DNA of 64,000 bases from Paratrimastix pyriformis (taxonomy: Eukaryota > Preaxostyla > Paratrimastigidae), in NCBI GenBank assembly GCA_027972325.1, contig JAPMOS010000052.1, positions 147,501-211,500 of the forward strand. Direction: 5' to 3'. Under the pieces are notes generated by a model. That model was not told the DNA's origin. It saw nothing but the letters and a program-made list of their open reading frames with translations, and ran no database searches. Below, one piece after another: positions 43,045 to 64,000 of this stretch. A program made the translations under genes and the position numbers. The first letter of the stretch is position 1. Every line of letters begins with the position of its first letter.

Positions 43045-43129
43045 TGTGCGTGTTAGGCGTTTGGAATAGGAGAGTTCTCCTGGGTAATATACTCGTGCAG
43101 GCACCCTCTCTGCACCCACCCTGCCCACA
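43045..43129 (+). repeat. 5' LTR of element A
   Basis: 85 bp starting TGTGCGTGTT and ending TGCCCACA. Unusually short for Ty3/gypsy. Immediately followed by the palindrome GTATCGATAC and then TGGGCACTTCTCC, a possible primer-binding site. Confidence 0.9.
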
Positions 43130-43193
43130 GTATCGATACTGGGCACTTCTCCTTTTTTCTTGATTTCAACTAGTGCCTGGTAACCGTTACACC

Positions 43194-44604: not shown

Positions 44605-47600
44605 GTGAACGGGGTGTCCGCGCCCGCTCTCCTGGACACTGGCGCAATGATTTCCGTTATCTCACCGGCTTTTGCGCATGATCTGGCACTACCGGTCGTG
44701 GAGGACGGCCCGGTTCGCTCGGTATTGCTCGCTGATGGCAGTCGTACTTCTGTTCAGCGTTTCAGTCCCGTTACTTTGAGGCTGAGCCCCGAATGCAAGC
44801 CTCAACAGGCCGTCTTGTACCATCTGGGTCGTGACCCGTTGATCTTGGTTGGTCTCTCTGAATTGCGCGGGCATGGCCTTGTTCTTGGTGATACTCCAAC
44901 CATCACTCCTCTCAACATCCCTGTTGATGATGACGACAACGATCTGGGTGATGATGATTATGGTGGTGAGGCCATTGTGGGACGCTTGGTTTTGGCCGGT
45001 CCCCTTGGTGCTCTTGATTCTGACGGCCAGCCAGATTTGGCCGCCCTTGCTCTTGCTGCTCCGCGCATCGCCACTCTTGCCACTCCGCCTTCCGGAGTCT
45101 CGGAATCCTCGCCTGTGTGGATTGCACCCGCTTCTGAACAGCCTCACCTTGGGAAGGCTGCACCGACCCTTCCTGTTGTTCGCCGTGATGTTCTCACCGA
45201 CCCTGAGGCCCAGCAGGTTACCGACCTTCTCGGCGAGTATGCGCATCTTTTCGGGGGACTCACCTCTTCCCCCGCTGTGATGGAGCCTTTTCGGGTCCAG
45301 CTCTTGCCCGGAGCCAGCCCTGTCTCGACCCCTCCCCGGCGTTTTCACGGGGAAAAGGAGGCCTTCGTGAAGAGACAAATTGATGATTGGCTCTCTGCCG
45401 GAGTTATACGTCCATCACGGAGCGTCTGGGCTGCTCCACTGACAGTCGCCCCCAAGCGTGGTGGCGGCTGGAGACTTTGTGTGGACTTTTCTCAACTCAA
45501 TTCCCGGACTGCTCAGGAGGCTTTCCCGTTGCCGATGGTCAACGATTTGACTTCGGTTTTTCGGGGCTGTGGTTACTTGGCCTCTTTTGATCTCAGTGCC
45601 GGGTTCAATCAAGCGCCGGTGGCCCCAGAAAGCGTTCCGCTGCTCTCGTTCACCTCGAGCCATGGACAATTTGAGTTTCTTCGCCTGCCCTTTGGAGTTG
45701 TTTCGGGGCCCTCCTACTTCCAGAGGCAGACCTCAACCATTTTCTCCAATTTGGCCCGGACGGTTGTCTATCAAGACGACCTGGGTATTGGAGGACGGGA
45801 TTTTCCTGAATTCCTTTCTGGCCTGCGACGTGCATTGGAACGAGCCGCACTTCACCGCCTTCGTCTGAATGTCAAGAAGGCCAACATTGGCCCCAAGGAG
45901 TTGTCTTATCTGGGTTTGCTCCTTGGCCCGGATGGGACTCGTCCTGACCCGGAGCGTGCTGCCCCTTTCCTGCAGCTGCGTGACCCTTGCAACGTGGCTG
46001 AACTGCGCAGTCTTGTGGGGACGATCCAGTACTACATCCCGTACCTCCCTGGACATTACCGTCTTTTGGCTCCGATGCTTCCTCTTTTGAAGAAGGGCCA
46101 GCGCTTTCACTGGAACGCGGAGTGCCGGGAGTCTTTCAGCAAGCTGAAGACCCTGTTGTCGCGCGCGCCTGTGCTCCATCACCCTGACCCTCAGGCGCGG
46201 CTGGAGATCCGGACGGATGCTTCTCAGAAGGGGATTGGCGCGGTCCTCCTTCAATATCCACCTGGCCGTCCGGTGGAGACCGTATGCTTCGCGGGGAGGC
46301 AGCTGACCCCCGCGGAGAGACGCTACTCCACGCTTGAACAAGAGACTCTCGCCTTGGTTTGGGCGTTGCACAAGCTCAGGGGCTATCTGCATGGCCCTAT
46401 TGTGGCGACGACCGATCACCGGAACTTGAGCTTCGGCACCAGTGATTCCACCAGTGATCGTGTTCACCGCTGGCGCGCTCAGCTTGCCACGTATGCTCTG
46501 ACTGTTCGCTATGAGCCTGGCTCTGGGAACTTCATTGCTGACTTGCTGAGCAGACTCATTGCTCCTGTGGACCCTCCCCTGCCGGTTTGTCGTGACGCAC
46601 CACCTGGGGTTCGGGTGGTTGTGGTCGACGATGACAAGGATGGTCCCCTGGTTGAACAGCCACCTTTGCCCGATCTTGCTTCTCCTCACGAGCTTCCCGA
46701 TGGGTTTTCCGTCGATGATCTTCCTTTGGTGAAGCTGTTGTCGCCTTTGAAGCACCGAATTGTCGATGGCCGCTGGGTCCTTGAGGAGCGACCTCCGGAT
46801 GATTGTGTGTCGCGCCTCTTGACATGTGCCCATTCGCTCCCACTTTCCGGCCATGGCGGAATCCAACGGACCGCCTATCGTTTGCATCAGGCGGTCACCT
46901 GGCCCCACGATGAGGAGGATGTTGCCAAGTTTGTCCGGTCTTGTGTGGGGTGCCAACTTGCAGCCCGCAAGCCGGATGCTCCTGCTGATCTTCTGACGAC
47001 ACCAGCTGGGAGTCCTTTCTCGTCTCTGCAACTTGATTTCATTGGGCCCCTGCCGAAGACGTCGGCGGGATCCGTGTATGCTCTCACTGTCGTTGATCGC
47101 TGGTCTCGCCTGACCGAGGTCTCCGCTTTTCCTGATGCCACCGCTCAGTCAGCAGTTTTGGGACTCCTCTCGTGGATTTCGCGCCATGGGGTTCCTCTTT
47201 CAATTTGCTCTGATGGCGGCCCGCACTTTGCGTCCGGAGCTTTTCACCAGGTCGTGGAGTCTCTTCGGGTTGATCACCATATCTCTCTGGCCCATGCGCC
47301 GACTGGTCATGGTTTGGTGGAGAGGCAAAACGAAACCGTTCTGGATGCGGTCCGAGCGCTCCTGCTCGACAATCATGCTGCTGATGTGGAGTGGGATACC
47401 ATCCTGGAGCCTGTCTCTTTTGCCATTAATTCTGCTCCGAACCGTGTGACTGGACTTTCGCCTTTTGAGGCCGTCCACGGGTTCAAGATGCGGTTGCCGA
47501 TTCAGCAAGAGCTGGGGTTTCGCTCTGTGCTCGCTGATGATCCTTTGGCTTTTGCTGCTCGCCGATCGGCCCAGCTCCAGACTATTGTCGCCCGTTTTGC

Positions 47601-48105
47601 TGAGGCGGAGCGCAAGGCGTACGAGGGACGCCGCCGCGCGTATCTCCAGCGCGTGGCCCGTCGGCCGAAGGCTGAGTATGATCCGGCCGAGTTCGTCCTG
47701 GTTTCTTGGCCTGCGCCCAACAAGCTTGCTTCGGTGTGGCGTGGGCCGTACCAGGTTGTCTCTCGCGAGTCGCCTGTGAGTTACCGGCTCCGTGATCTGG
47801 TCTCGGGCATCGAGACTGTCTTTGCCGCCTCGCGGCTCCGTCGTTTTTTCCAGGGCGACATGTCCGAGAATGATCTTCGCGAGGTGGCCGCTGCGAAGGG
47901 GGAGTTCTTTGTGGAGTTTGTCCGGAGTCACCGTCGCCAACCTGCCCTTGAGTTCCTGGTGCATTGGCTCGGCTATCCCGACGCCGATGAGACTTGGGAG
48001 CCGTACGAGAACTGTGGTTCGGAGGATCGGCCCCAGCCCCGTGGCCAGCCCCGTCGCAAGGCCACGAGGGGGGAAGGGGTAGGGGTCTGGACTTGTCGTT
48101 CGTAA
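44605..48105 (+). CDS. pol: pol polyprotein of element A (protease, RT, RNase H, integrase, chromodomain)
   Basis: One long open frame of 1,166 codons. Protease LLDTGAMISVIS, RT with VVYQDDLGIGG, RNase H with IRTDASQKGIGAVLL and TTDHRNLSF, integrase zinc finger ending CVGCQLAARK, DDE core with LQLDFIGPLPK and CSDGGPHFASG, and a C-terminal chromodomain FLVHWLGYPDADETWEPYENC. The chromodomain places it among chromoviruses, which target integration to particular chromatin. Confidence 0.93.
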   Translation: MNGVSAPALLDTGAMISVISPAFAHDLALPVVEDGPVRSVLLADGSRTSVQRFSPVTLRLSPECKPQQAVLYHLGRDPLILVGLSELRGHGLVLGDTPTITPLNIPVDDDDNDLGDDDYGGEAIVGRLVLAGPLGALDSDGQPDLAALALAAPRIATLATPPSGVSESSPVWIAPASEQPHLGKAAPTLPVVRRDVLTDPEAQQVTDLLGEYAHLFGGLTSSPAVMEPFRVQLLPGASPVSTPPRRFHGEKEAFVKRQIDDWLSAGVIRPSRSVWAAPLTVAPKRGGGWRLCVDFSQLNSRTAQEAFPLPMVNDLTSVFRGCGYLASFDLSAGFNQAPVAPESVPLLSFTSSHGQFEFLRLPFGVVSGPSYFQRQTSTIFSNLARTVVYQDDLGIGGRDFPEFLSGLRRALERAALHRLRLNVKKANIGPKELSYLGLLLGPDGTRPDPERAAPFLQLRDPCNVAELRSLVGTIQYYIPYLPGHYRLLAPMLPLLKKGQRFHWNAECRESFSKLKTLLSRAPVLHHPDPQARLEIRTDASQKGIGAVLLQYPPGRPVETVCFAGRQLTPAERRYSTLEQETLALVWALHKLRGYLHGPIVATTDHRNLSFGTSDSTSDRVHRWRAQLATYALTVRYEPGSGNFIADLLSRLIAPVDPPLPVCRDAPPGVRVVVVDDDKDGPLVEQPPLPDLASPHELPDGFSVDDLPLVKLLSPLKHRIVDGRWVLEERPPDDCVSRLLTCAHSLPLSGHGGIQRTAYRLHQAVTWPHDEEDVAKFVRSCVGCQLAARKPDAPADLLTTPAGSPFSSLQLDFIGPLPKTSAGSVYALTVVDRWSRLTEVSAFPDATAQSAVLGLLSWISRHGVPLSICSDGGPHFASGAFHQVVESLRVDHHISLAHAPTGHGLVERQNETVLDAVRALLLDNHAADVEWDTILEPVSFAINSAPNRVTGLSPFEAVHGFKMRLPIQQELGFRSVLADDPLAFAARRSAQLQTIVARFAEAERKAYEGRRRAYLQRVARRPKAEYDPAEFVLVSWPAPNKLASVWRGPYQVVSRESPVSYRLRDLVSGIETVFAASRLRRFFQGDMSENDLREVAAAKGEFFVEFVRSHRRQPALEFLVHWLGYPDADETWEPYENCGSEDRPQPRGQPRRKATRGEGVGVWTCRS

Positions 48106-48217
48106 AGCCGAACTTCTTTCCCTTTGTTTTGTCTATTCCATCCGTCTTCTTCGCCCTGCCTTTGTTTCCATTCCCCTTCCTCTCCCTCACCTGTGTCTTC
48201 GTCTCGAAGGGGGGTAG

Positions 48218-48302
48218 TGTGCGTGTTAGGCGTTTGGAATAGGAGAGTTCTCCTGGGTAATATACTCGTGCAGGCACCCTCTCTGCACCCACCCTGCCCA
48301 CA
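48218..48302 (+). repeat. 3' LTR of element A
   Basis: Same 85 bp as the 5' LTR with no difference seen by eye. Confidence 0.9.
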
Positions 48303-50059
48303 TCGTTGTCGTCATCATCAACAGGGATGTTGAGAGGAGTGATGGTTGGAGTATCACCAAGAGCAAGGCCATGCCCGCGCAATTCAGAGAGACCAACCAA
48401 GATCAACGGGTCACGACCCAGATGGTACAAGACGGCCTGTTGAGGCTTACATTCGGGGCTCAGCCTCAAAGTAACGGGACTGAAACGCTGTACAGAAGTA
48501 CGACTGCCATCAGCGAGCAATACCGAACGAACCGGGCCGTCCTCCACGACCGGTAGTGCCAGATCATGCGCAAAAGCCGGTGAGATAACGGAAATCATTG
48601 CGCCAGTGTCCAGGAGAGCGGGCGCGGACACCCCGTTCACAACAACCGTTGTGGTAAGCTGAGGGTCAAGCTTCCCGAAAGATGGGAAAGTGACAGCGGT
48701 GGTAGCTGCCCCAGAGCATGGAGTGGTGGCCACAACAGAAGCTGAAGGTGCGGGGGTGCCAGCCGGTACGACAGGAGGTGGACAGGTGACAGGCCCAACA
48801 GGAGTGGGAGGAACCCCAGCCGGTGGTGGACAGGCTTGGAGAAGCCGCAAGTGAGCCGGGTTCCGCGAACGGCGTGGGTACCGTCCGCCACCGAAAGTGG
48901 GAGCCGATGTGGTGGAAGTACCCAAAGGAGCGGGAGACGTCGGAGGAGGTGGAGCAGGAGCAGGTGGACGGTTGGGGGCCAACCTCGGGGCCCCGTTGTT
49001 CTCGGGATGATACCTGCTCCGTCCGGGAATTCCATGATCGTTGCCCGGACAATCCGAGATCGCATGACCGGAGGAGTGACACCATGTGCAAAGCCCCTGG
49101 TCGCGAAGGCGGCTACGCTCGACGGAGCCCCGCGAAGTCGGATGCGGGGGGACCGAGGCAGTGGCCGGAGGAGACGGAGTCGGAGGTTGAAAAGGAACAC
49201 GGCCGGCGAAAGCGTGTTCACGGTGACGGCCATGGCCAAAGGAGTGGCCGAAAACAGGGCGAGGAGCGGTCGTGACACCTCGTGACAGATGGAGCGCTGC
49301 AGCCTCGTCAAGTCTCTGCGCAAGATCGCGCACGCGCTCGACCGCTCGATGCAACTCGGTTTCCTGATCCAGAGCCGCCAACTCCTGAGCGGCCTGTTCG
49401 GCAGGCGTCTTCGCAACCCCGGCAGAACCCGCGGGGTCAGAACCAGAAGTGGCCGGAACAGAAGTGGCAGAAGCCGAAGGAGCTGGCTTCTCGTCCTCAG
49501 ACGAAGACGAAGAGGAATCATCGTCCGAAGAAGGAGACGCGGCACAGCCAACAAGGAACTCATCCTTGACCATGTCGCCAAAGAAACCGCGGAAAGACTT
49601 GAGAAAGAGCTTCGCGGCGGCCTCAGCCGGGAACTTCAACCCATCAACAAACCTGAGGAACTTCCAAATATGTTCCTCAAGTGAGAAGGCGATTTGCTCA
49701 GACGTCGGTGGAGGAGAAAAGACAAGCGATGCCAAATGACGAGTTCGGAGAAAATTTGATTTCGGTCGAGAGATGTCGTAAAGCGAATCAAAGAGATCTT
49801 CACAAGAATCGAAGCAATGTTGATTGTAACGCAAAAGAATACCCACCGCAGAAGGAGGGACCAATTGCCTCAAATCAACAGGAAGGCCATCAATCGATCC
49901 AATAGTCTGTGAGATGGTGTCCTCAAATCTCACACACTCTTCAAAGTTCAAGATGTTGCGGAGACGAGGAAGATTCGGCAAAGGTGAAACGAAGGCTTCC
50001 GGCTTCATGCTCCGAATCTTCGACGGCAAAAGAATGGTGGCGAATTTCTGTCTAGACAT
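48303..50059 (-). CDS. gag: gag-protease region of element B
   Basis: Minus-strand relative of the element A gag, starting MSRQKFATILLPSK near 50059 and including the zinc knuckle (LCTWCHSSGHAISDC) and protease LLDTGAMISVIS. It ends where element A begins. Fossil element part. Confidence 0.8.
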
Positions 50060-50397
50060 GGTGTAACGGTTACCAGGCACTAGTTGAAATCAAGAAAAAA
50101 GGAGAAGTGCCCAGTATCGATACTGTGGGCAGGGTGGGTGCAGAGAGGGTGCCTGCACGAGTATATTACCCAGGAGCACAATCCTATTCCAAACGCCTAA
50201 CACGCACATGATTGTGACATCACTGATCGAATATATTGTGAAACTTTTTCACAACTTCTTTCTGACAAGTAATTTTTTTAAGCGAGAGGTAAAAAGCGTC
50301 CTGGGCCTCCCGAAGGCAGGGAAGGGCCATCCGTGCAGAACAAAGCGTTTGTTATGTGGCCCCGGGGCTTGAGGCCAAATGCTGGGGTTTAAGAAAG

Positions 50398-50841
50398 AAA
50401 GGGGAGAAGGGAAAGATGATGAAATGATCGGACAGAAGAGAAGGAACACACCTCCCGTTTGGCAAAGTGGTTCCTTTCGCTCATGAATTCCGTGCCAAGC
50501 TGGAGTCCCTCTGCGGGAAGATCCGTGAGGACGACCACACGGAGGTCGAGGTGGATGAGGCAACCGCCGCCCTGTTGGCGGTTGCCGCCCAGACGGTGGG
50601 TGTTCCGAGGCGGAAGCTGTCTACCGGCCAAGCTAGGTTGGCCGTCCCCCGGGCCGAGGCCCTGGTTGCGCTGGGTCGCGCCGCCGACGCTGTTCGGATC
50701 ATCAAGGGTGCCGACTTGGAGCCTTTGACCCCCCAGCAGCAGTTGGACGCCCTCGGTGCCCTCCATCACCCCGCCCCCTTGCACGTTGCCCCCGATTACC
50801 TGCGCCAGTATTTTGTTCCAGGGTTTCTGTGGACGCTATAG
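50398..50841 (+). CDS. Unrecognised ORF, possibly an exon
   Basis: Plus-strand frame reading VPFAHEFRAKLESLCGKI, DEATAALLAVAAQTVGVP, ALGRAADAVRIIKGADLEPLT and APDYLRQYF, with Ala/Leu-rich helical composition and codon use like a real gene. No family recognised. The frame stops soon after, at an AT-richer patch (50842-50880). It could be the first part of the mobile-looking cluster to its right, or a separate gene fragment. Confidence 0.4.
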
Positions 50842-51137
50842 ACATTGAGATTTCTATAGAAAAAAGCCCGACGCTCTGGCCTCCGGGTTTTCGTGGACAG
50901 ACCCTCCCCACTCGGCCTGTCTGTAGTGAGGGCCCGCGGGTTTTCATGAACAGACCCTTCCAAATCCTCCTTGCTTCACTTTCACCTTGCTTCACCCTGA
51001 CGCACTTCCTCCTCCTTTTTTCGAGAGAAAACGTCGAGCCTCTAATTTCGGATCAAAAAGAGAACCAGATTCATTACTCGTCTTCGTCTTCGTCTTCGCC
51101 TTGGGGGTTGGCGTTGTAGTCGTTGTTGCCAGTGTCG

Positions 51138-52358
51138 TCATCCGAATTTATCGCCGGCAAACCATTCATCTTCGTCATCATCGGCTACCGGCACGTTCTC
51201 GGGAAGTGGCACGGATTCCGGCACGGGTTCGGGCTCAGCCACAAGGACAGGAACGGGCAGAGGAAGGGGCCCAGTTAAGAGGAAGTCCCAAAGGGTAGGA
51301 AGCTCGCGCGCGCAGGTGCTGGTGCGGAACTTGTGGCACTGAATCGACCAGTCATAGGTCTTCCGTTCGTCCGCGGAGAGAGAGAGGTATTCACGTTCGC
51401 AGGCCAGGAATACCTTGGGGAACTGTTCTCCGTAGTAGTCAGTGCGCTCCAACAGGGAACGGTCACGAAGAACCCCCCTGAGGTAGAAGGGGTAAGAGCG
51501 TTCCCAGAGGACGATCTCATCGAGCCTCATCGGGCCCTCGACGGGGTGGTCGATGTCGAATGCAGCCTCGGAATCAAGGAGCAGGGTAATGAGCAAGGCT
51601 CTTGCTGACAGGCCCCTGTAGGTCTGCGACGTATCAGAACAGCGTCCGCTGGTCAAGGAAAAAAGGACGCCACCGAAAGCGAGAACCATCCGGGTGAGTA
51701 CCTTGTGCAACTCAACACAGATGGGAGCGGAGAAATGGTACTCAGTCAACGGCTTCAAAAAGTGAACGGGGACGATGAGGCCGGGATTCAGATGATTCGT
51801 GTTCGGGAACCAACTTGCCAGCAGCTTGGGGAAGATCCGTTCGTAAAAAGCCTGTCGGCTTAGGTGCACCTCGGTCTTGTCCTCCGGTTGAAAGAAGTCG
51901 TAGGTCCTGGAGGAGAGGCATGAGAAACCCACAACACATCAGGGAAAACAGTAAACAGACCGATTGAGGAGCGGGGAGCAGCGGACTTCGTAGCCGGGGG
52001 CTTGTCGTGGCATCATGCCGGGAAGGGGCTCAGGAAGGGGCTCAGGAAGGGGCTCAGGAAGGGGCTCAGGAAGGGGCTCAGGAAGGGGCTCAGGAAGGGG
52101 CTCAGGAAGGGGCTCAGGAAGGGGCTCAGGAAGGGGCTCAGGAAGGGGCTCAGGAAGGGGCTCAGGAAGGGGCTCAGGAAGGGACTCAGGAAGGGACTCA
52201 GGAAGGGGCTCAGGAAGGGGCTCAGGAAGGGACTCAGGAAGGGGCTCAGGAAGGGACTCGGGGACGTCCTCGACGAGAATGATCACCTGGCGAGACCGAG
52301 TCCGTCTGCTAAGCATGGCATGACTTGCGTGCTTCCTCTGCATTTTGGCGGTTTCCAT
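51138..52358 (-). CDS. Unknown protein with PLPE repeats (two exons), inverted paralogue of 52.7-53.1 kb
   Basis: Exon 1 (52358-51969) encodes a short basic start, then about twenty PLPE/SLPE tetrapeptides from the 12-bp minisatellite. A 55-60-nt intron (GTCTGT...CTCCAG) leads to exon 2 (about 51910-51138), reading [77 protein letters not shown] and [17 protein letters not shown], with a Pro/Val/Glu-rich and acidic tail. Helical, no signal peptide, no known family. A second copy lies on the other strand close by, so the protein is probably encoded by a repeated element. A capsid-like role is possible but not shown. Confidence 0.5.
52015..52262 (-). repeat. 12-bp GGGGCTCAGGAA minisatellite coding for (PLPE)n
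   Basis: About twenty 12-bp units with GGGGCT/GGGACT variants. On the minus strand they give PLPE/SLPE. Exact periodicity in multiples of three keeps all frames open, so the plus-strand GLRK-type peptide is an artefact. Confidence 0.97.
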
Positions 52359-52669
52359 GCGGGATACTCCAGGGGGTAACAGCCACTCTTTTCAAAACCA
52401 GGAAGTTCAAAATCAGACACAAGGAAAGCACTATTTCTCACGCCATCTCTCTGTTTTGTTCCCCTTGTAGGACGAACTACGGCTGGCACACGCTCTTCTC
52501 GGTGAACGGACCCACGCTGACGGGTTCCGCACAAGATAAAAGTTATGGTCGAACAATAGATCAACGGTCTTCTCGATGCGACGAGGCTCCAGGGGGTAAT
52601 AGCCACTCTTTTCAAAAAAACAGGGACACATGGAAAGCGGGAAGAAGGTGGCGGAGAGAGGTACTTAAC

Positions 52670-54722
52670 CGGTTGGGACTCACCTTCGGAAAAATCCTGT
52701 TTTCGATGACCTGCGGTCAAAGTGCTGATATCGAGAAGACCTACCAGTTCCTGACTTCAAGAGCCTTGATGATTCTTGTGTGTCTGGATTCCGAGGCTGC
52801 ATTCGGCGTCGACCGTGCCGTCGATGGCCACATGAGGCTGGATGAGCTTGCCCTCTGGGAACGCACTTTCCCCTTCTACGTAAAGGAGGTTTTTCATGAC
52901 CGTTCCATGTTGGAACTCACTGACTACTACGGAGAACAGTTCCCCAAGGTATTCCAGGCTTGCGAACGTGAATACCTCGCTCTCTCCGAAGACGAACGGA
53001 AGACCTATGACTGGTCGATTCAGTGCCACAAGTTCCGCACCAACACCTGCTACCGCGAGATTCCGGCCCATTGGGACTGTCTCTTCAAGTTCACTGGGAA
53101 CGCATAAACAACCCGAGACTTTTTTTGTCTCTATCTCTCCCACCGGAGTCGGCCACCGAGGAAGCCCAGCCTTCGTCGAAACCGGTGCCCGAGCCCGAGC
53201 CCAAAGCCAAGCCCCGAGCCAGCCAGTCCAAGCCGCCGCAGCCCGCCCCCCAGGCCAAGCCGCCGCAGCCCGCCCCCCAGGCCAAGCCGCCGCAGCCCGC
53301 CCCCCAGGCCAAGCCGCCGCAGCCCGCCCCCCAGGCCAAGCCGTCGCCTCAGCCCCAGCCGGCTCAGCCTCAACCCCAGACCCCGGCCCAGGCCCAGCAA
53401 CAACACTCCAAGCCACCGCAGCAGCGTCAGTCGCCCAGGCCACCACCAAGCCCGCGTCCGCTGCGCCTCGTTCCGGCCCCCAGCTGCTTTCCGCACCCGC
53501 GGAGGGCCCCGATCCCTCATGGGAAAACCTTGGCCCGGTTCTACTGCGGGGATGCCGAAGCGATCTTGTTTCGCGCGAAGGATAATCCCGGCCGTGTCTG
53601 CAGTTTCCAACTTGTTGGATCCCCACTAACATCCTCGTTTTATTCAATAGACACTGTATACCTTGGCCGTGTTGGATGCTCCCTGGGGCATTACCGACGA
53701 CCCTCGAGACAGACCCACCCCGGACTACGGATCCCTGGCCCAGTACCTCGACTCGTTCATTGCCCCCAATGGTACCATCATTGTGATGGATACCGAGGCC
53801 AACTTGTCCCAGCAATGGACGCCGGCTCTCGAGTGCTTCAATTTCGTGAGCGATCACCGAATTCGTGCCATCTGGGGAAGTCCGTGATTCATTCCCTTCA
53901 CGCAATTGGTTTTTAACTTGTGCTTCTTCATCACTTCTTCGCGCAGATTACCTCGAGGAGGCCAACCCCCGGCCGTCGCTCTCACCGGGAGCCCCCCGCC
54001 CTGAGGAGGTGGAGCTGCCCATCGAGGTCTTCCAGCGAGGCCACGAGGGGCCCGTCAACTGGCGCTGGGATGTACTGTGCCCTTCTCCGAGTGCGAAGTT
54101 GGCCGAGATGAACGCCCGGGCCAACCCGCGCACCAACGCGGTCTACCTGCGGCACCAGGCGGGGCAGGCCCGCTTCGCCAAGCCGGCCGATCTTTACGTC
54201 TACCTCTTCCGCCGCTACGGAGGGCCGGGCCCTGTGTTGGACTGCTTCTGCGGCTGTGGGCCAGCTCTCTTGGCGGCAGAGGCCACCGGAACGCGCGTTG
54301 ATCTAATTGACCGGGCGCCTGCAGTGGAGAGCCTCATGATCGGCCACGTGCCTCCGGTGCTGGTGCACCAGCAGGACGAAGCATACCTGCCCCTCGAAGC
54401 CCACGAGACGGAGCTTTGCAACGTCGTTGCACCCCTGTCGACGAATGGGACCTGCATCTTCCTCTGCTCCCCCTCAAGAAGAACCTGCCCCGGCTCTACA
54501 AGAACAGCAGGCCTCCGAGCAGACCACCACCGCCGAGCAACAACAACAAGAGCAGGCCTTCGAGCTTCAAGACGACCAAGAGGGCCCCTCATCCCCGCTC
54601 CCGATGATCAGCCTTATCAGTGGCCTCCTCCTTCCGACGAGCTCAACCCGCTGCTGGACCCGCTCAGTCCGGATGCTTTGGGCGAGGACCTTCAGCCCGA
54701 GGAAATCGAGGACTTGCCGTAA
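52670..54722 (+). CDS. Spliced gene: unknown domain, (AKPPQPAPQ)n linker and beta-class amino-methyltransferase domain
   Basis: Left part (about 52670-53107) is a paralogue of the minus-strand protein at 51.1-51.9 kb ([50 protein letters not shown]). A Pro/Ala/Gln linker with four AKPPQPAPQ repeats follows. Introns 53596-53650 (GTCTGC...AATAG) and 53880-53946 (GTCCGT...CGCAG) join three frames into a methyltransferase. Motif IV is LAVLDAPWGITDD (D-A-P-W in place of D-P-P-W/Y), then FVSDHRIRAIWG, then the AdoMet site FAKPADLYVYLFRR...VLDCFCGCGPALLAAEATG. Motif IV before motif I is the order of beta-class N4-cytosine/N6-adenine methyltransferases. So DNA (or possibly RNA) amino-methylation is the likely reaction. 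The C-terminal Pro/Glu region is frame-uncertain. Whether all parts form one protein is inference. Confidence 0.6.
53233..53341 (+). repeat. 27-bp repeat coding for AKPPQPAPQ
   Basis: Four tandem copies of a 27-bp unit (GCCAAGCCGCCGCAG then CCCGCCCCCCAG) in the linker of the methyltransferase gene. Copies look identical. Confidence 0.95.
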
Positions 54723-54926
54723 CTTGTAATACAATCCCTCTTTTCGATCCTGATTTTTTTTTTGGTTTGTTTTTTTCTAAGAAACACGATACATCGAGAA
54801 ATTGCCTCGATTGAACAACAAGCCACCGGGGCGGGATCGGGACCCGGAGGGGTCTGGGACCGGGAGTAGTGCTCGCTGGACGGGCTGCATGACCAGGGTG
54901 ATAGCCACTCCTGTGGCGCCTCTGAT

Positions 54927-56566
54927 ATGGAGCCAATCGAAGTTGACGACCTCCCTCCACCGCTTCCTGAGGAGGAGTTATTTTTCGGAGGTGATGATGG
55001 TGACGAGGCGGCACATGAGGAGGCCGAAGAGCCAGCCCTTGGAGACCTGGACCCCGCAGAAGCCGCCGAGATTGACGTCGTGGTTGATGTAGCAGCAGAC
55101 GATGGTGATGTGGCTGATTATGGAAGCTACGACCGGACGGCGCGGGGATCCATCTAATCCTTGCCGGGATCGAACGTCTGTTTTTGGTTTTTTCGGGTCA
55201 TGATCAATGCCCCCGTTTGTCTCATTTTTCCAGTTCGGGAAGGATCACGCAGTTACCGGTCGAACTGTCTAAAACACGCCAATGAAGGGTTGTACCGCGT
55301 CGAGCGGGGAGTTCTGCAGCGGCTCCGCTTCGACCACGAGATCCGCGATCGGCCCATCTGGGTGCCCGTGATCTACCCGCTTGCCCGCCGTGTGCGCTTG
55401 CTGCGGCGCTTGCATGTCCAGCAGGGGCACCTCAACCGAGATGCCCTGATTGCCTACTCGAAGGGCCTCTTCTACATCCATGGCGTGGATCAGCTTGCGC
55501 GGGACATCATCGGGACGTGTGGCCAGTGCCAGAGCGTCCGGCCCACGTACGAGCATCCCAAGTACCACGCCTTGGTGGTCAACCGGCCCCTCGAGGTGGT
55601 CGAGCTCGACTGCGGCGGCTTCGAGATGAGCTGCCAGCCGCCTCGCGCGTTCTGCGTTCTGGTGGACCACTTCACGAGCTACATGTGGGCTGCCGCGACA
55701 CGGGAGACGAAGGCCACCGGGGAGGAGGTGACCGACCTTCTCAGTCGTGTGTTCACCAGCGACGAGCCCAATCTGCTCCCCACCCGGATCGTGACCGACA
55801 ATGGGACCGAGTCCAGCGCGTGGCCGAGTGGATCGCGTCTGTCCTGTGCGTTTCGGATTTGCTCTTCACAGTCATCAACCCGCTCAGGAACAAGAACCTG
55901 CTGCCCGGGGTCCACATGGAGCACCACCGGTCGAGGCCGTACTACCCCCAGTCTCATGGGAAGGCCGAGAACGCCGTCAAGAAGATCAAGAACCGGGTGA
56001 TGAAGATGCGGATCGTGCCGGCCACCAACCGCGAGCTGCCGTGGCAACCCTTCCTGCAGCCCGCCGTGCACCTGTACAACACGGCCACGGTTTCTTCGGT
56101 CTTCCAGCAACGCCCGGTTGTGATGATGGCGCTCTACCTCCCCGAGTACGAACAACTGGGCGACATGGCCCAGCTGCCGGACAAGTTCGCCAACCTGACG
56201 GCCGCGGAGGTGCGCCAAATCAAGGAGGCCGTGGCGTTCTACCGGCACCGCGAGTACGGCTACATTGAGCGGCGCCGCAACAAGGACCAAGAGACCATCG
56301 AGGAGGGGACTCGCGTCATGGTCGCCCCGCCTGCCAAATGGCGCCGGCCCGGCATTGGCAGGTTCTGCTGGTCCGGGAGGGTGGCGGAACGCATGCGTAA
56401 CGGCACCTACGTCATCGAGTTTGAGGATCGGGTCAAGCCGGGCATTCCCAAGGTCTACGGGCGCAACAAGCTGCGGCCTTACGATGCCACCTTCGATGCC
56501 CCGCTCCCTGCTGCGGGAGGCGCTCTGGTCCCCGTCGTTGATCGCCGGCGTCACGCGCCCCCAGAA
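54927..56566 (+). CDS. Retrotransposon-type DDE integrase
   Basis: N-terminal acidic Pro/Asp/Glu stretch, then a pre-integrase region GLYRVERGVLQRLRF, an H2C2 zinc finger (LHVQQGHLNRDALIAY ... GTCGQCQ), and a DDE core with ELDCGGFEMS (first Asp), RIVTDNGTE (second Asp) and SHGKAENAVKKIKNR (Glu). The C-terminal part reads VMVAPPAKWRRPGIGRFCW and ends at 56566. It fits LTR-retroelement and Ginger-type integrases. No RT, RNase H or protease is recognisable beside it. Treated as a fossil: one apparent break in the core. Confidence 0.75.
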
Positions 56567-56876
56567 TAAACACCCCCAACCCCACCATCCCCACCACCGC
56601 CCCCCGTCCCGCAGTTTTCCGGTCCGGTTTTCTGCAAAACAAAATGATCTTATACGAATGCTCGAGGAGGGGGTGGGGTGAAATCGTTGGAGGGGCCGGA
56701 TAATCGGGCTCGGGGGGAGGCTGCGTGCATTACCAGTTTTCTCCCAGAGGATCCCCAAAACCGGCTCTCGCTCACCCCCCCCCCCCCCCCCGTTCATGAA
56801 CGCCCTGTGCACTCTGGGTTCTTGTCGACGCCCCGTCCATACAAAACCGGAAACATATTTTAATCCCACCCCCACG

Positions 56877-57857
56877 CAGGCTCCCGGCCCGGACGAGTCG
56901 GCGCCGCACTTCAGCGACCGCGATGTCAGGCGCGCCTTGTTCGGCTTCAAGCACGGGGCCGCTGCGGGTCCGAGTGGCTTGGCCCCGACCACATCCGCAG
57001 CGCGGTCCGCAAAGATCCTGCCATCCTGCCTCTGCTCGCCGAGGCCCTGAACTTCTTCGTGAAGTGCGGGCGTCTCCTCCGACCCTGGCCGCAGCCCGTC
57101 TTGTCGCGATCCCGAAGCCCAAAGGAGGCACGCGACCGATTGGAATCAGCGAGACCCTTTGCAGGCTCGCCATGAGGCTGCTGGTTCGGCGTTTCGAGGG
57201 GGTGACGAGGGAGAGGCTTTCACCCTTCCAGTTTGGTGTGTCCGTCAAGGAGGGTGCGCCCCTCATGGCATGCATCTCAGCGTCCGTCGTGGAGGCGTGC
57301 GAGGCGGGTCGGCAGCCCTACTGCCTTGTGGCTGTCGACCTCCGCAACGCGTTCCAAGCCCTTCGCGCGAGGCGGTGCCCCTGGCCGCTCAGCGCGTCGG
57401 GTGGAGCCAACCGGCTGTCAAGCTGGTCCAAGGTCTGTACGCTAACGAGGCCCTGTTCTCCGGTGGGGAGAGGGTCCCTAATGCAAGAGGAGTCCGCCAG
57501 GGATGCCCGGCGAGCCCCCCCTTGTTTGCAGGGATCCTCGACCCAGCCCTACAGGTCCTCGAGGCCGACAAGGCAATTCCGAGGCTCATGCTCCCGGGAG
57601 AGGGCTTGGGCCTGGTCGTCCCCCGCGTTCTGAGCTACTTTGATGACATCCTCCTGCTGGCACCCTCTCCCGACGTTGCCCAGCACCTTCTGGGTCTCCT
57701 GCGCACCCTCATCACTCCCCTGGGCTTCGAGATCAGCCCCGAGAAGTGTTGGGTCATCTCCAATGCCCTCGACCCCAAAGTCCGCCTGGTCCCTGGCGGG
57801 CTTCCTCTACCCGTCCGTCGCCTGGCGGATGGGGTGACGGTGTGTGTGTGTGTGTGA
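56877..57857 (+). pseudogene. Orphan non-LTR-type reverse transcriptase fragment
   Basis: Seen: FKHGAAAGPSG, DHIRSAVRKDPAILPLL, RLVAIPKPKGGTRPIGISE, LVAVDLRNAFQAL, ARGVRQGCPASP, LSYFDDILLLAPSP and TPLGFEISPEKCWVI. These are RT motifs 1-6 in the order and spacing of non-LTR (LINE/R2-like) enzymes. They are spread over three plus-strand frames, with at least three shifts (around 56,965, 57,070 and 57,380), so this copy is broken unless short introns are present. No endonuclease or RNase H is attached. It ends in a (GT)8 run at 57,841-57,857. Its GC is as high as that of nearby host genes. Confidence 0.7.
57839..57857. repeat. (GT)n dinucleotide run
   Basis: Eight GT units at the 3' end of the orphan RT frame. 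Confidence 0.9.
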
Positions 57858-58020
57858 TACTTCCCGGCTTGCGCCGAGTCCGGAATCGGGCCGAAGCCCG
57901 CGGGTGACATGATCCCCCCCGGGCCGCCTTCCCGCAGGACAAGTCCTGCAGAAAGAGCACCCCAGGGAGTTCATGGGTCGGCTACCGTCCCTCCAGGGGC
58001 GGTCTCCGCCGACTTCCGGA

Positions 58021-58906
58021 CTACAGCTCTTCTTTCATTCCTGCCTCAAATTTTTCGCACTTCTTCCTTTGCTGAATCGCTATGAGCATCGTTTTCCTGA
58101 TTCCTGCCAGCTCGCTTCCCACCTCCTTTTGAGTGTCTTCATCCACAATTCCCATTTCCGCTGCCAGTCTACATGCATTCGCGTATTCCATCTTAACACC
58201 GCACTTCGCTCTCAACCTCCTCATCACCTTCGTCACCACCGCCTCCGATATCCCCCTCCAGTTGTAAAGCGCTTCCCCATCTCTCGGGCGGCCCTCATAG
58301 TTTACCTGCACCATGCAACTCCTCCTCATTCCTCCATCCTTCCCCCCTCCTCAAGATCGGCTCCCACGCATCTGAATGTCCCCCTTGATCGCCAAGCTCA
58401 CACCGTGCTTCGGCTCACTCCCCGGCTGGATTCTGTTCGCTTTCCCTTCCCCGTACGGCACAATAACAATGCATCTAAACGCTCTTTCCCTCCTCTACCA
58501 ATCGGGCTCTCCGCCCACTCTCCAATTGCTCGGAAAAACCGATCCATCTCCTCCTGGGGTTATATTCCGGATTCGCATAAATCAACAAGTCCCGATTCTC
58601 CTTAAATAGCCCGTACCCATCCACCGAACCTCCCAGGAACCAGTCTTCCTTACTCGGCGTTCTATACTCTGGGAAACTGAGATCCGCATTCCCTGGGTGC
58701 GAAAACGCCATCACCGTTAGGCTTCCCGCCTGCCTCAGCAACGAAGATATAGTGTGGGGAGTCGTCCATTGGTTCCTCAGCGTACTCATATGCGTCCGCC
58801 CCTCCTTTACTGTCGTGCTTTTCCCTTCCTCATATCGGTCACACATCTCAGCCACCTCTGTCGAGAACCTTTCCCAAAACTGTCCCATGTTCTCGCCCGA
58901 AACCAT
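58021..58906 (-). pseudogene. LINE C-terminal extension of unknown function
   Basis: Two frames (58906-58475 and 58329-58021) downstream of the RNase H domain read TLRNQWTTPHTISSLLRQ, FPEYRTPSKEDWFLGGSV, YGLFKENRDLLIYANPEYNP and RRLRAKCGVKMEYANACRLA. No known domain. It ends KFEAGMKEEL at 58021. Confidence 0.5.
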
Positions 58907-59588
58907 CTCCCCGGGACCTCTCCATCAATTGCCATAGCCTCACCTTCGTGATCTGCCTGCCCCTTATCTTCACACACTCGCCCATCGGCTCCACCCACTT
59001 CTCCTCGAGCAACTGGTCCGGGTCTTCAGCTCCCTCCGCCTTGTCCAACCACTCAATTAGCTTCACTGCATCCGCCCCTTTCCATCTCTCCCCACATCCC
59101 GCCATCCCTGGGCACTCAAACACCAAGTGGTTCATGTGGTCCCTCACCCCACACCAACACTTCCCATCCCCCTCCCCGTTGATGTAGAACCGGATGTTGG
59201 CCGTGATATACCGCTGCAGGATTGCCATCATCGCCAGCTTCCCTGACATCTCACACCTCATCGTTTGCACGTTGATCCCTCCGTTGCGACTCTCTGCATT
59301 AATCAACACAATCTCGTTTTTCTTTTTACGAGCCGCCCTCCACATTCGACTTTTCCTCCCCCATTCCTTCATCACCTCTCTGAAGTCTGTCTCCACCTCC
59401 TTCCCGTCACTTCTCCGCACCAGCTTGAATCCCCATCCTTTCTCTTCGGGCACCACGCTCGGCTCCATCTTTATGCTCCGTCCCGCAATCTTGTCTGCCA
59501 ATCTGTTCCCCTCCGCATCCAGCGACGCACTAGTTTCCTGATGTCCCTTAACCCAGACCAGTCGTATCTCTCCACGATGCTCCTTCAC
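58907..59588 (-). pseudogene. LINE RNase H domain and zinc-knuckle-like tail
   Basis: LVWVKGHQETSASLDAEGNRLADK is cut from the RNase H end (motifs with His and final Asp). CWCGVRDHMNHLVFECP follows, a C-x-C-H-C pattern common after RNase H in this LINE group. Confidence 0.75.
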
Positions 59589-60139
59589 AATCCGCTGCCC
59601 TCCGCAGCAGTCCCTCCGCCTTCGATTCTATCAGATCCGTTGGTTTCCACCAACCCTTCCAGTCCACCCACTGTCCACTTCCACAGCCTCCAACTCCGCT
59701 TCATTGTTAGTCTGCCCCACCTCCTCCCATTTTAATCTCCATCACCGCGAACGCCGCCCGTCCCTTCCTTCTGTCGCACTCCCATCAGTATAAAACAACC
59801 TCCATTCCGCCTCTGGCTCCACTCTTACTTCCACCTCATCACACTCCGCCATCAACTCCTCCCGCCTTTCCACAATACCTCGTCCCACTCACCAGCCCTC
59901 GCCCTCCCATCTTGTTCCCCTCCCTCCACCTGCCCTTCCGCCCTCCTCTTCTTCCGCTCCCTCAATCCATTCCATCCTTTCCTTCCTTCACTCCCCCATG
60001 TTTCCTCCATTTCCTTCCCCCTTTTGCTTGCCTCTTGACTGGTTTCCTTCCCATTTTCCTCCATCCCTCCTTCCATTCCATTCCATTCCTTTCCCTTCCT
60101 CCTCCTCCGTCCGCCTCCTAATTCAGATAGTCGGACTCA

Positions 60140-61950
60140 CCCTGTTACCCTTTGATCGTCTCCACATACTGCGGCATCACCCTTTCAATGAAATCTTCCC
60201 CTATGATGAGGTCCGCCACACTCCGAATCTTCCTTTTCATGAGGGTCTGTCTGTGCTTCTTTGTTATCTTGCAGGGCTCCGCCATCTCTTCCAGTGTCGT
60301 CGGCATGCCGTACTTCACTTCCTCCTTCAGTTTCTCACCGTCCCTCAGGATCGCCATGTCTCTCCTGTGCATCACCTGCAACGCCCCAATCACCACCCCG
60401 GCATCTTCTCCTGCCCGTGCATCTTCACCCACTTCCCTGCATCATCCAACAGCGGCTCACGCGTCGTCCACAATTTCTGCAGCAGCACGATCTCCTCCCT
60501 CAGCACCACTCCACACCCCTGCTCGTCCGCCATCCTCCCAGAATTTGTGTCATCACCATCATATCATGGACATCAATCGGGTCCTTCAGCCCCATACCCC
60601 TTCCTCCTCCGGAAAGAACAGCACCTCTGCCGGGTCGCATTTCCCAATACAACCTCCGATTTCCCTGAACACCCTCGCATATCTCTGCTTCAGTGTTTCC
60701 AAGTCCCTTGTCGGCATTGGGCACTGCCTCGCCGTGTATTGTAGGCAAGTCGAGACACACTCATTAATCATTTGCACCATCAACCTCGGAGGACCTTCTT
60801 GTCCATGAGCCTGTGCAGTCGCCCACACATTTTCTGGATCACCTTCTCCGTGTTGACCTTCATGTTCATCTCCTCATCTATCCATATCCCAAGATACCGA
60901 ATTGCTCCACCCTTTTGCTGCACTCTGATCTTTCGACCCTCTCCCAGATCCAAGTCCGTCTTCCCCTTCACCCCGCCACACAGGTAGTCACACTTGCTCC
61001 ACGACAGCTCCATACCAGCCTCTTCCACTTTCCGCCTTACCGTATTCACCAAACGGACCATCTGTTCCCTTGTTCTCGTCACCAACATAATGTCGTCCGC
61101 AAATGCCAACACCTTTACCTTCCTGCCGCTATCCAGAATATAGCCCCCTCCTGTCGTCTCACCTCCGCCAAGACTCCCTCCATGAAGGAGATAAACAGCA
61201 GGCAGGACAACGGGTCCCCTTGACTAATTCCTCTCTCAATGTCATAGCTATCCGTCAACCCGTACCCCGTGATCACCCGCGCCTTTCTCCCCTCATACAA
61301 GCTGTCCACATACCTGACAAATTCCTCTTCCACCCCATCCTTCTCAACCCCTCCTGAGCGCCTCCATGTCAACTGTATCATAGGCCTTTCTTATATCTAG
61401 CGCGCACATGTGGAACTCCTTACCTCCCATAATCTTCGAGTCCGTCAACACCCCAAAATCTCGGCAATAGGCGTCTCAATCCTCCGATCCCTCAGGAAAC
61501 CAAACTGCTCCGCCCCGAATACCCCTTTTCAACGCACCAGTCTTGAAATCTCGAGGCAATCACTACCTGCAGTCCTTTCAAAAACCTGTATTAAAGTTAT
61601 AGGCCTTCTGCCGGCCGGATCCCCGGATGCTCCGTCTGCGATTTGGTTGCCATATAGACCGAGCTGAGTTTCAGCTCCTCAGGAACCTCAGACTTCTCCA
61701 ACATCTCGTTGTATCGCCTCCCCAACCACTCCTTAATTTCGTCCTGACAAGCATGGACCATCTCCGCCGTCACTCCATCCGGGCCAGCCGCTTTCCCGTC
61801 CGGCAACGCCCCCAGTATTGTCTGGATATCATGCGTCGTCAGAGGGGCCATAATTACCCTTCCACCCACGCCTCCCGTTACCTCCTTCAGTCTTTGCCCC
61901 CGTCCCCACCGGCAGCTTCCTTTTGCAAGCCCGCCATGAATCCCCACCAT
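60140..61950 (-). pseudogene. LINE reverse transcriptase domain
   Basis: LPDGKAAGPDGVTAEMVH (start of RT), RGISQGDPLSCLLF, AFADDIMLVTRTREQ (catalytic FADD) and RYLGIWIDEEM, then a thumb region ending near 60145. Spread over at least three frames. Confidence 0.8.
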
Positions 61951-62499
61951 CCCCTCTTAACCTCCGCCGGGTCCGACACCACCCTGTCCATCTTCCCTCC
62001 GCATTTCGAGTCACGTAGGTTGTAATTGGCGCCGCGCCATCCGTCATGATACCCTTATAGATACGCTTGCGCTTCCCTCCAATGCCCTATCTCTCTTACC
62101 ATAATGCACCAACCTCATCTTCGCCAACTGTTTCAACATCTCCTTCCTCTTATTCAAGTCCTCCTCCGCCAGCGCTCTCCTCCTCAATTTCTTTATCCTG
62201 AAAGGCTCAAAATCTCGATCCGTATTCATCACATCCCTATAGCCAAAACGCAGCCAGCTGTTACCCGAAGAAACTCACTCATCTGTTCAAATGATGGCTC
62301 CTCCCCTTCACAGCTGCCTCTCGCAACATTTGCGCAACCTTCCCACGGTACTTTTCCATTTTCCCAACCATAACATCATACTCCTCCTTCTTCTTGTCCC
62401 GCAACAGTGCCTCCACCTCCGTCCGGGAAGGGCAGATGGCCACCTTCCTCCGAGCCATTTTCACCGCAGAGGCGCCATGTTTCGGAGATCCGTTACAAT

Positions 62500-63690
62500 C
62501 ATGTGGTGATCCGTGACCGCCTGCCACTGAATCTCATCATTCCGCCAAACAAACAAATTGTCCAGCACCCTCCCCATTGTCCCCTGCGTCGACAGACACA
62601 AATCCAACCAGGCCCTCCCCTTCCTTCATGCTCTTCCTCTTTCGCCACCGTCCCACCCTTCCGGCTCCGGATAAAGTTATCTCCCCGCCTTCCCAACCAT
62701 CTTCGCCACATCATACAATCCCAGTTTCTCTTGCTCCCCTCCTTCCTTAGCCCATCCGTTCGCATCTGTGTTCTCCATCCGACGCCCCCCCACTCCCGCT
62801 CCACCTCACCCACCCTCTCCGTCTCCAGTAGGAAAATACATGTTGATGAGTCTCATCTGATTCTTCCCCTCCGTCCAGTCCATAAACATGAGATAACCAG
62901 GAATCACCTCCGTAATCTTTCGCACTGCCACTTGCAATGTTTTTCTATACCCAATCATCACCCCCCTCGGGTGCCTCTTAACAGACTCCTCCGCCACTGA
63001 GCTCCTCCAGCACCACCCCTTCATCCATTTTCCTGCAAAACTCCTTGTTGTCCCTCGTTCCTTTCGCAAAGCGCTATGTCCGTTCGACCCACCTTTAGCA
63101 AATCTTCTACATTTTCTTTCCATTCCGAGCCCAGCCCCCGCACATTCCATCCGACCACCCTCACCCGATCCTCCTCTTTCCCAGCAACCCCGCCCTCAAG
63201 TTCCTTTTCCTTTCCACCCTTCCACCCTTCCTTTATTTCCTCTTCTTCCTGCATCCACCTTCCTCCTCTTCCACTCCCTTCCCCCCCACCATTTCCATTC
63301 CTCCCTGGATCCTTCCACCCCACCCCATGCCCTGCTCCGCCCCGGCCCATCCCGCTCCCAGCCTTCCCTCCATCTGCATCTTCCACCCGAACGCCGGTCC
63401 CAGGGCCGACTTCCTCATCTTCAAGCCTTTTCCTGCCCCTCCACATACAGGAACACATCTCCATGACCTGCTTCCTCTTCCCCAACTTCTCCGACCCTGC
63501 TGTCATTAAACCTCCACCATTGGTCTCCAATCTTTGACCGCCACCCAGTGTCGCCCACCCCTTCTCCCACAAATCCGCCACCGCTGCGTGTGTTCCACCC
63601 TTGTCCATCCATGGTTTGTCCATTCCTTCTGTGATCCACCTTGGCTTTTCATCCACCCTTCCCATTTCCATTCCTCCATTCCACATTTAT
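62500..63690 (-). pseudogene. LINE AP-type endonuclease domain
   Basis: VRVVGWNVRGLGSEW and DLLKVGRTDIALCER (start of the APE fold), RGVMIGYRKTLQ, LINMYFPTG, then CLSTQGTMGRVLDNLFVW and TDHHMIVTD, the S/TDH end of the domain. The pieces lie in different frames. Confidence 0.75.
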
Positions 63691-64000
63691 GTCCTCCTTC
63701 CAGACCTCCATTTCAAGACCTCCTCCACTTCCATCCTTCCTTCCAAACCCTCCACCCATCTTCCCTCCAGGGGCCCCCCCCCCTCCATTATCTCGTACAA
63801 CTCACCCACCCCCCAGCCGCCTCAACCACCTGGAGGCGTGCTGATCCAGCACCGGTGGCCAGTGACATTAACTATTCCTCTATACATTCCGCCCCATTAC
63901 CATCCTCCAGCTCTCCATCACCTTCCCCCACTCCATTTCCACCTCCATAGCAATCCTGCTCCCCACCGCCTCCAATCTTTTTACCGATGTCATCGTCATT
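63691..64000. other. Window end, probably LINE 5' region
   Basis: Pyrimidine-rich on the plus strand, with open frames but no recognisable domain. It could be LINE 5' sequence or ORF1; the window ends here. Confidence 0.3.

Follow-up and report, generated by a model that had tools for sequence, protein, structure and literature searches.

Do a methyltransferase-like gene and an integrase gene that lie next to each other in the genome of Paratrimastix pyriformis belong to a single mobile element, and if so, what might a methyltransferase do there? They lie in a stretch of 64,000 nt (the window). A preliminary description had combined the two genes and a protein present twice in inverted orientation into one element. 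In line with this, the methyltransferase-like and integrase genes of the window are parts of one large mobile element with dozens of copies, as seen from ends common to the copies, from target-site duplications and from the repeated occurrence of the genes together (Table 1). The cluster had been taken to start at 50398, and this boundary has to be moved: the element begins at 50814. We found neither a single-copy host methyltransferase without the integrase nor a lack of repeated boundaries.

Table 1. Features of the element copy in the window (positions are those of the window)
Feature	Position	Strand	Remark
Entire element as found in the window, with internal deletion and partial inversion	50814–56855	+	ends common to C193 and C18 copies
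Left target-site duplication TATTT	50809–50813		
Right target-site duplication TATTT	56856–56860		
Left terminal inverted repeat	50814–50835	+	17/22 positions agree with right repeat
Right terminal inverted repeat	56834–56855	-	
Three GGTTTYNNTGRAC repeats near left end, candidate transposase-binding sites	50822–50951 (starts 50822, 50886, 50939)	+	
Uncharacterised protein, first paralogue, 264 aa	51138–51932	-	
Inverted segment with part of second paralogue	52659–53139	+	C193 20180–19704 in reverse
Junction, ~7.5 kb of C193 absent	53137–53140		window 53137 resumes at C193 27740
Methyltransferase exon with DAPW (motif IV, 53675)	53651–53879	+	limits by eye
Putative GT-AG intron	53880–53946	+	by eye; stops and frame change between motif exons
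Methyltransferase exon carrying motifs X (KP) and I (FCGCG, 54246)	53947–54722	+	
Acidic open frame, possibly first part of integrase gene	54924–55157	+	assigned by eye
H2C2-DDE integrase (putative transposase)	55234–56569	+	start by eye

The terminal inverted repeats of the window copy are imperfect (TGTT...AACA), and the first five terminal bases of the element are TGTTC and TGTTT. The shortness of these repeats was counted against a transposon. Throughout the genome the left end, as a 36-mer, occurs at at least 72 places and the right end, as a 32-mer, at at least 85 (up to 2 mismatches each), and the same search with both patterns read backwards gave 0 places. Nine copies with both ends have a length of 11.3–13.5 kb. 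Six of 13 copies are flanked by exact 5-bp target duplications, representing five different sites (TATTT, AAGCC, AAGAT, GAGGG and GGAAT); assuming equal bases, the chance of an exact 5-bp duplication in 5 of 11 copies is 4e-13. A flank match of 0–2 bp in 6 of the 13 was counted against the transposon reading; C111 could not be judged. The copies compared are 95–100% alike and, by their sequence, look recent. Neither excision nor activity was observed, a further point against the transposon reading. The interior of the element carries a 138-bp palindrome-bearing array. The GGTTTYNNTGRAC pattern, which was picked after viewing the sequence, has 3 matches in the window against a chance mean of 0.16 and 0 matches at the right end of the element; a stricter form has a single match in the C193 copy.

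The window copy is degraded by internal loss, inversion and a shortened integrase gene. Part of the description of the paired protein stood, as the pair is present (51277–51703 versus 52659–53085, 81% over 427 nt), whereas its inverted orientation is not the layout of the long copies: in both that were compared, C193 and C18, the paralogues are arranged in tandem, in C193 with a shared strand. In the family the pair is on the strand opposite the methyltransferase and integrase genes. The opposed arrangement in the window arose because ~480 nt are locally inverted. With dN 0.20 and dS 0.29, the paralogues show little constraint. Their protein belongs to no recognised Pfam family, all 25 proteins found at E <= 1 were named P. 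pyriformis, and AlphaFold2 on 9 sequences reached a mean pLDDT of 36.9. Near 55813 the window integrase is 7 nt shorter than that of C193 and is therefore frameshifted, which is why the downstream frame of the window alone remains below the Pfam cut-offs. The assignment as an H2C2/DDE integrase nevertheless holds, as the C193 copy passes them (rve E 1.3e-9, Integrase_H2C2 3.7e-6).

The second gene had been described as a beta-class amino-methyltransferase from the order DAPW, then FCGCG. Both motifs are present in this order, and at the motif level the complete beta-class (N6_N4) order is found: DAPW, then KP, then DCFCGCG. DAPW and FCGCG are coded in two reading frames, which the putative intron would join. 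By its sequence, the SAM-binding half, which has motifs X and I, is similar to N6_N4 DNA methyltransferases of bacteria: against each of three bacterial enzymes 0 of 1000 shuffles were equally good, and against a profile of these three this half ranked first of 2001, the comparison enzymes having been chosen as matches of that same piece. Weak matches occurred in 16 plasmid records, and among 10 listed 9 were named DNA methyltransferase or methylase. All 6 that were fetched belong to PF01555; among the 6 bacterial relatives, the motif order was opposite in 2, and 1 showed no motif IV. The DAPW half is assigned putatively, on the motif alone. The usual motif IV has PP, from which DAPW departs. 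In the protein search one match at E <= 1e-3 was obtained among 739 candidates (98% identical over 68%), the best PDB match was no lower than E 0.22, and none of 15 stretches of viral contigs fitting the methyltransferase patterns was confirmed. A ParB-like N-terminal domain, proposed by eye from a VVDGSHR motif upstream in C193, was unsupported by Pfam, PHROGs, PDB and a genome search with ParB_N.

It is rather unlikely, yet deserves weight, that the methyltransferase-like gene is a passenger or is no DNA methyltransferase at all (acting on RNA or protein, or reusing the fold), with the integrase alone mattering for mobility. The atypical DAPW and the unrecognised catalytic half, for which 735, 675 and 267 of 1000 shuffles were equally good against the three bacterial enzymes, would fit such a gene. 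So would the profile search that had been suggested: it recovered rve in the C193 copy, but PF01555 (N6_N4_Mtase) does not recognise the methyltransferase-like gene and gave a single weak match elsewhere in the whole genome. Matches to phages are mostly not methyltransferases either (8 weak records with the whole 234-residue query, 2 in genes named methyltransferase). However, the SAM-binding half does resemble DNA methyltransferases, and both subfamilies retain the gene, the DAPW exon differing between them by 2 synonymous and 0 nonsynonymous changes and the motif X/I exon by 5 and 5. Together these are 7 synonymous versus 5 nonsynonymous differences (537:1641 possible, P 0.013), which speaks for selection on the gene, where the first stretch counted (53663–53885) starts 12 nt inside exon 1 and extends 6 nt into the intron, and 2 of the 5 nonsynonymous differences (54436, 54444) follow a 1-nt length difference at 54431. 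The sample comprised the window, 7 closer copies and 7 of the 8 least similar among 40 methyltransferase matches.

The integrase is of the retroviral type, with a zinc-finger spacing of H-x4-H-x29-C-x2-C (counted by hand) and a DDE core of D-x62-D-x58-E. Its best NCBIfam match is IS481 (1.2e-10; 41 bits, far under the cut-off of 224). No protein at E <= 1e-3 was found for the integrase piece among 5,156 candidates, own-species gene models included, and viral contigs gave no matches to the integrase patterns. Compared with C193, four copies fetched as divergent have dN/dS values of 0.18, 0.37, 0.21 and 0.43; six close copies range from 0.21 to 0.63, resting on 3–6 changes each. Another copy fetched as divergent (L073) does not differ from a close copy in any codon compared.

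In the preliminary description no reverse transcriptase, protease or DNA polymerase had been recognisable, and scanning all six frames of the C193 copy with Pfam likewise gave no reverse transcriptase, RNase H, protease, polymerase, capsid, ATPase or tyrosine recombinase, the last being a DIRS feature. The sole family credited was the H2C2/rve integrase, and the element is therefore, to judge from its predicted coding content, an integrase-type DNA transposon. A Polinton/Maverick or other virus-like element is very improbable. Its large size and rve integrase would suit one, as would the identical flanks of the C182 and C193 copies, formed in C193 by a PolB-like open frame, but this frame lies outside the element ends, the Pfam scan of C193 scored no PolB, capsid, ATPase or protease family inside them, and the duplication is 5 bp against 6 bp given for Polinton in the part of PMC10045372 consulted. 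Slightly less credence still is due to a Gypsy/Ty3 LTR retrotransposon that has lost its reverse transcriptase: 5-bp duplications are also compatible with it, and H2C2 and rve domains recall a retroviral integrase, but the ends are inverted repeats, and C193 has no long terminal repeats in a self comparison and lacks reverse transcriptase, RNase H and protease in all six frames.

That the methyltransferase lies directly upstream of the integrase is borne out for 22 of 40 scored methyltransferase matches, which have an integrase match on the same strand and at most 2.5 kb downstream. The 40 scored in each case came from 132 and 99 candidates. The right end lies 287–379 nt beyond the integrase match in 35 of 40, and the left end 1.7–2.3 kb from the match to the paired gene in 30 of 40. 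Mere neighbourhood of a solo integrase transposon and an unrelated repeated gene can practically be dismissed, since, despite 18 of 40 methyltransferase matches without a scored integrase within 2.5 kb, the distance between the two is a constant 517–544 nt in 19 of 23 gaps measured and both lie inside shared ends.

The window thus probably holds a degraded copy of an 11.3–13.5 kb P. pyriformis DNA transposon family that would use its integrase as transposase and may use its methyltransferase on its own DNA. The integrase would bind the terminal and subterminal repeats, cut at the TG/CA ends and attach these to the target at positions 5 bp apart. More tentatively, the second enzyme might be a beta-class amino-methyltransferase (N6A or N4C) acting on the element's own DNA, for example on the ends or the internal array, and such self-methylation might time transposition, or shield or mark the element. 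It is conceivable, as a tentative proposal, that the transposon methylates its own ends and the 138-bp array (6mA or 4mC) and that the transposase works only on DNA in one methylation state. To our knowledge, and as far as the literature we found goes, this would be the only integrase-type DNA transposon of a eukaryote to set an amino-methyl mark of its own. Nanopore and PacBio reads underlie the published genome assembly (PMC10703272, in part); with copies that look recent, self-marking of DNA could therefore be addressed from the raw reads, if available.

How does the element relate to known systems? Our comparisons draw on parts of the papers cited. Its likeness to Ginger2/Tdd seems to be one of mode of working, with membership no more than possible: both have an H2C2 zinc finger and DDE integrase, no reverse transcriptase and ends starting with TGT (PMC2836005). 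A short target duplication is shared too, of 4 bp in Ginger2/Tdd and, as here, of 5 bp in TDD-4 and TDD-5. Unlike Ginger2/Tdd, the element is long (2.8–6.7 kb for autonomous members in the table of PMC2836005), has terminal repeats of ~22 bp (about 50–180 bp; 45–297 in the table), lacks the purine at the fifth base of the TGTNR termini, differs in the listed DDE spacing and carries extra genes including the methyltransferase (PMC2836005). Ginger1 is marked by a CCGG- or CCGT-specific 4-bp duplication, which the five different 5-bp targets here do not show. Some IS481EU families, eukaryotic integrase-like DNA transposons, have TGT...ACA ends, but they are without the HHCC motif, code a single protein and make duplications of ~4, 15 or 25 bp (PMC10045372).

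For the methyltransferase, the bdelloid rotifer N4CMT is likewise a bacterial-type N6_N4-like enzyme in a eukaryote and tied to transposons and tandem repeats, but it is encoded by the host, contains a chromodomain and aids transposon silencing, whereas the gene here rides on the transposon (PMC8885841). No description of this gene set was found in the literature. The earlier remark that no such element was known was fair for the exact set and left out the Dam-like adenine methyltransferases of DIRS (PMC5890265, PMC3266345). DIRS retrotransposons code their own amino-methyltransferase domain, although with a reverse transcriptase and tyrosine recombinase, neither of which was found here (PMC3266345, PMC5890265). 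LINE, DIRS and Gypsy retrotransposons of Symbiodinium and Klebsormidium have likewise captured DNA methyltransferases, of the C5-cytosine type and in retrotransposons, and DNA transposons with DNMT in marine viruses are cited as well (PMC5890265). Since methyltransferases are already known from DIRS and further retrotransposons, the element varies a known theme (PMC5890265, PMC3266345). That an integrase-type DNA transposon has retained a methyltransferase-like gene, in a free-living flagellate from a eukaryotic lineage that has been little studied, extends such carriage past the retrotransposons and the transposons in viruses that the consulted part of PMC5890265 cites.

In this analysis we show that the element is a dispersed repeat of the P. 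pyriformis genome (56.06 Mb in 495 contigs searched, the window lying at C444:147501-211500). The integrase DNA gave 132 candidates and the methyltransferase DNA 99; for a protein without a Pfam family, present as two paralogues near the left end (hereafter the left-end protein), the second coding stretch gave 176. In each search 40 candidates were scored and all of them matched, at 95–100%, 95–100% and 98–100% identity, respectively. Comparison of the window copy with two long reference copies, on contigs C193 and C18, revealed sharp ends. With up to two mismatches allowed, the genome contains 72 matches to the left 36-mer, 59 of them exact, and 85 to the right 32-mer, 70 of them exact; the same patterns read backwards match nowhere. 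The terminal inverted repeats are imperfect (17 of 22 alike; 1 of 100,000 shuffles was as good). Six of the 13 copies with both ends read are flanked by an exact 5-bp duplication (table). No duplication was seen at the ends of the copies on C18, C77, C115 and C108 (the last lying only 6 nt before the contig end), the flanks of C120 and C221 match by 2 bp and 1 bp, and contig C111 stops 1 nt past the element. The missing duplications may reflect recombination between copies, or joins made during assembly.

The preliminary description had made the occurrence of methyltransferase and integrase side by side elsewhere in the assembly its check for a single element, and this is what we found: 22 of the 40 scored methyltransferase matches are followed on their own strand by an integrase match no more than 2.5 kb away, with 19 of 23 gaps measuring 517–544 nt. 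The right end lies within 5.5 kb of 31 of the 40 methyltransferase matches and 287–379 nt beyond 35 of 40 integrase matches; eight methyltransferase matches have neither integrase match nor right end within these distances. At the other side, 30 of 40 matches to the left-end gene lie 1.7–2.3 kb from a left end in the expected orientation, and 10 of 40 methyltransferase matches have such a gene 5.9–8.1 kb upstream on the other strand. Left and right ends could be paired within 30 kb in 15 cases, two of them with one left end in common: nine span 11.3–13.5 kb, the window copy 6.0 kb and five 18.2–27.9 kb, and the last may contain nested insertions. Since the right flank of the C115 copy starts with a unit of the internal tandem array described below, element copies seem to nest within one another.

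A six-frame Pfam scan of the C193 copy credited rve (1e-8, above cut-off) and Integrase_H2C2 (2.4e-5, slightly below cut-off in the long query and above it in a separate search) and nothing else; the remaining matches fell below cut-off, with NAF the strongest of them (E 1.1e-4, 24 residues). The top PDB match to the integrase is PFV integrase (2.5e-8); the element's own integrase has the catalytic spacing D-x62-D-x58-E. C193 also carries 19.5 copies of a 138-bp unit bearing a 27-nt palindrome, AAAATCCATACCGGCGGTATGGATTTT, with 26 positions matching; the 17-nt core of the palindrome was counted 20 times in the C193 stretch L037 and 14 times in the C18 copy, whereas the window has none. All 25 protein matches to the left-end gene are named P. 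pyriformis (97–59% identical). Two public gene models, P0014 and P0009, splice this protein to a weak chromodomain or aspartyl-protease-like part, both parts below the Pfam cut-off, and are perhaps chimeric.

The methyltransferase itself matches no Pfam family at cut-off, and the PF01555 profile gave a single weak match in the whole genome, on contig C135 outside the element. Its piece from motif X (KP) to motif I (FCGCG) matches PHROG DNA methyltransferase families (E 0.0008). A tblastn search of phages with all 234 residues gave eight records, all at E 0.9 or worse (two genes named methyltransferase, four RecA-like, one capsid, one without annotation). With the 93-residue motif X–I piece, 16 plasmid records were obtained at E of about 1 or worse; for nine of the ten listed, the gene hit bears the name DNA methyltransferase or methylase (four of the nine are in near relatives), and all six relatives fetched from the 16 belong to PF01555. 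Motif IV (DAPW in the element) precedes motif I by 142–296 residues in three of them (L076, L079, L081), compared with 166 in the element's enzyme; L077 and L078 have the opposite order, and L080 showed no motif IV by the pattern used. Against the first three, the motif X–I half scored better than all 1000 shuffles each, whereas for the DAPW half 735, 675 and 267 of 1000 shuffles were as good. For this reason the SAM-binding half is supported by sequence comparison, and the beta motif order would rest on the DAPW motif and its hydrophobic strand, the latter recognized by eye.

Between two subfamilies (eight and seven copies) the methyltransferase exons differ by 7 synonymous and 5 nonsynonymous changes, with 537 and 1641 possible (P 0.013 in a simple binomial that ignores mutation bias). 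Integrase dN/dS against C193 was 0.18, 0.37, 0.21 and 0.43 in four copies chosen as divergent. Retention of both genes by function within the family fits modestly; the two left-end paralogues (dN 0.20, dS 0.29) are under little constraint.

In the window, DAPW and FCGCG are encoded where they had been reported, and translation places them in different frames with stops between, which a 67-nt putative GT-AG intron, drawn by eye, would connect. The inverted protein pair of the preliminary description is likewise present (64% alike at the protein level), but its inversion is a local accident, because in C193 the two paralogues (79% alike) stand in direct tandem on a single strand, an arrangement shared by C18. 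Relative to C193, the window copy has undergone rearrangement. Its integrase lacks 7 nt of the C193 length in the stretch from the second D to the E, which shifts the frame, and the C193 frame is itself broken further downstream; single-base indels distinguish many copies, and some may be assembly errors. A second copy on the window's contig, C444, has an integrase stretch of the window's length, 100% (rounded) identical over 1311 nt, yet a different flank at its right end. In the window the copy seems to have landed inside another element that bears a reverse transcriptase, and in two contigs a PolB-like frame (DNA_pol_B_2 E 2.5e-5, slightly below cut-off, left part only) carries it at one AAGAT site, with a GIY-YIG-like frame nearby (by eye).

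Coordinates of the element and its surroundings (window positions unless a contig or stretch is named; L037 and L038 are stretches of C193, L002 of C444, G000 is the whole genome)
Feature	Position	Remark
Element, window copy	50814..56855 (+)	5-bp duplication TATTT
DAPW; FCGCG	53675; 54246	
Integrase frame start	~55234	by eye
Inverted coding duplication	51277-51703 vs 52659-53085	81% alike
Window copy on C193	17928-19711; 20180-19704; 27740-31451	collinear; then reversed; then after a skip
138-bp array	L037:4993-7682	
Second C444 copy	239495-242613 (L002)	
5-bp duplication	C73	AAGCC
5-bp duplication	C182 and C193	AAGAT, identical flanking sequence in both
5-bp duplication	C200	GAGGG
5-bp duplication	C280	GGAAT
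Chromovirus	42819-50208	RT, RNase H, H2C2, rve, chromodomain; gag-side part duplicated inverted, long arms 97-100% alike
Element flanks	50467-50813 + 56861-57857	resemble two parts of a reverse-transcriptase-bearing element (by eye)
Non-LTR retrotransposon	57973-63700 (-)	RT- and RNase H-like open frames (by eye)
PolB-like open frame	L037:32-529 + L038:4708-5283	AT-rich frame in the C193 flanks; C182 flanks the same
Host DNMT-like fragment	G000:C168:190493-190846	

It is likely that the transposase binds the element ends, perhaps also the subterminal repeats as candidate sites, and inserts the element at a cut with a 5-bp stagger. Bacterial Dam controls Tn10 and IS50, and by analogy the methyltransferase might, less surely, modify the element's own DNA. 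The host genome has one DNMT-like fragment and MT-A70 matches at three loci (C377, C14, C35), so the host itself may methylate DNA or RNA.

Our literature search, mostly without subscription papers and with Repbase outside its scope, found no description of this gene set among the titles and abstract openings listed, and no paper on both Paratrimastix and transposable elements. Methyltransferases do occur in retrotransposons, according to PMC5890265 and PMC3266345; PMC5890265 further cites DNMT-encoding DNA transposons in marine viruses. Of the Ginger2/Tdd features defined in PMC2836005 with which the element was compared, two are found in it and two are not (TGTNR and repeat length). In our reading the element works like Ginger2, but because of these two differences we do not assign it there.
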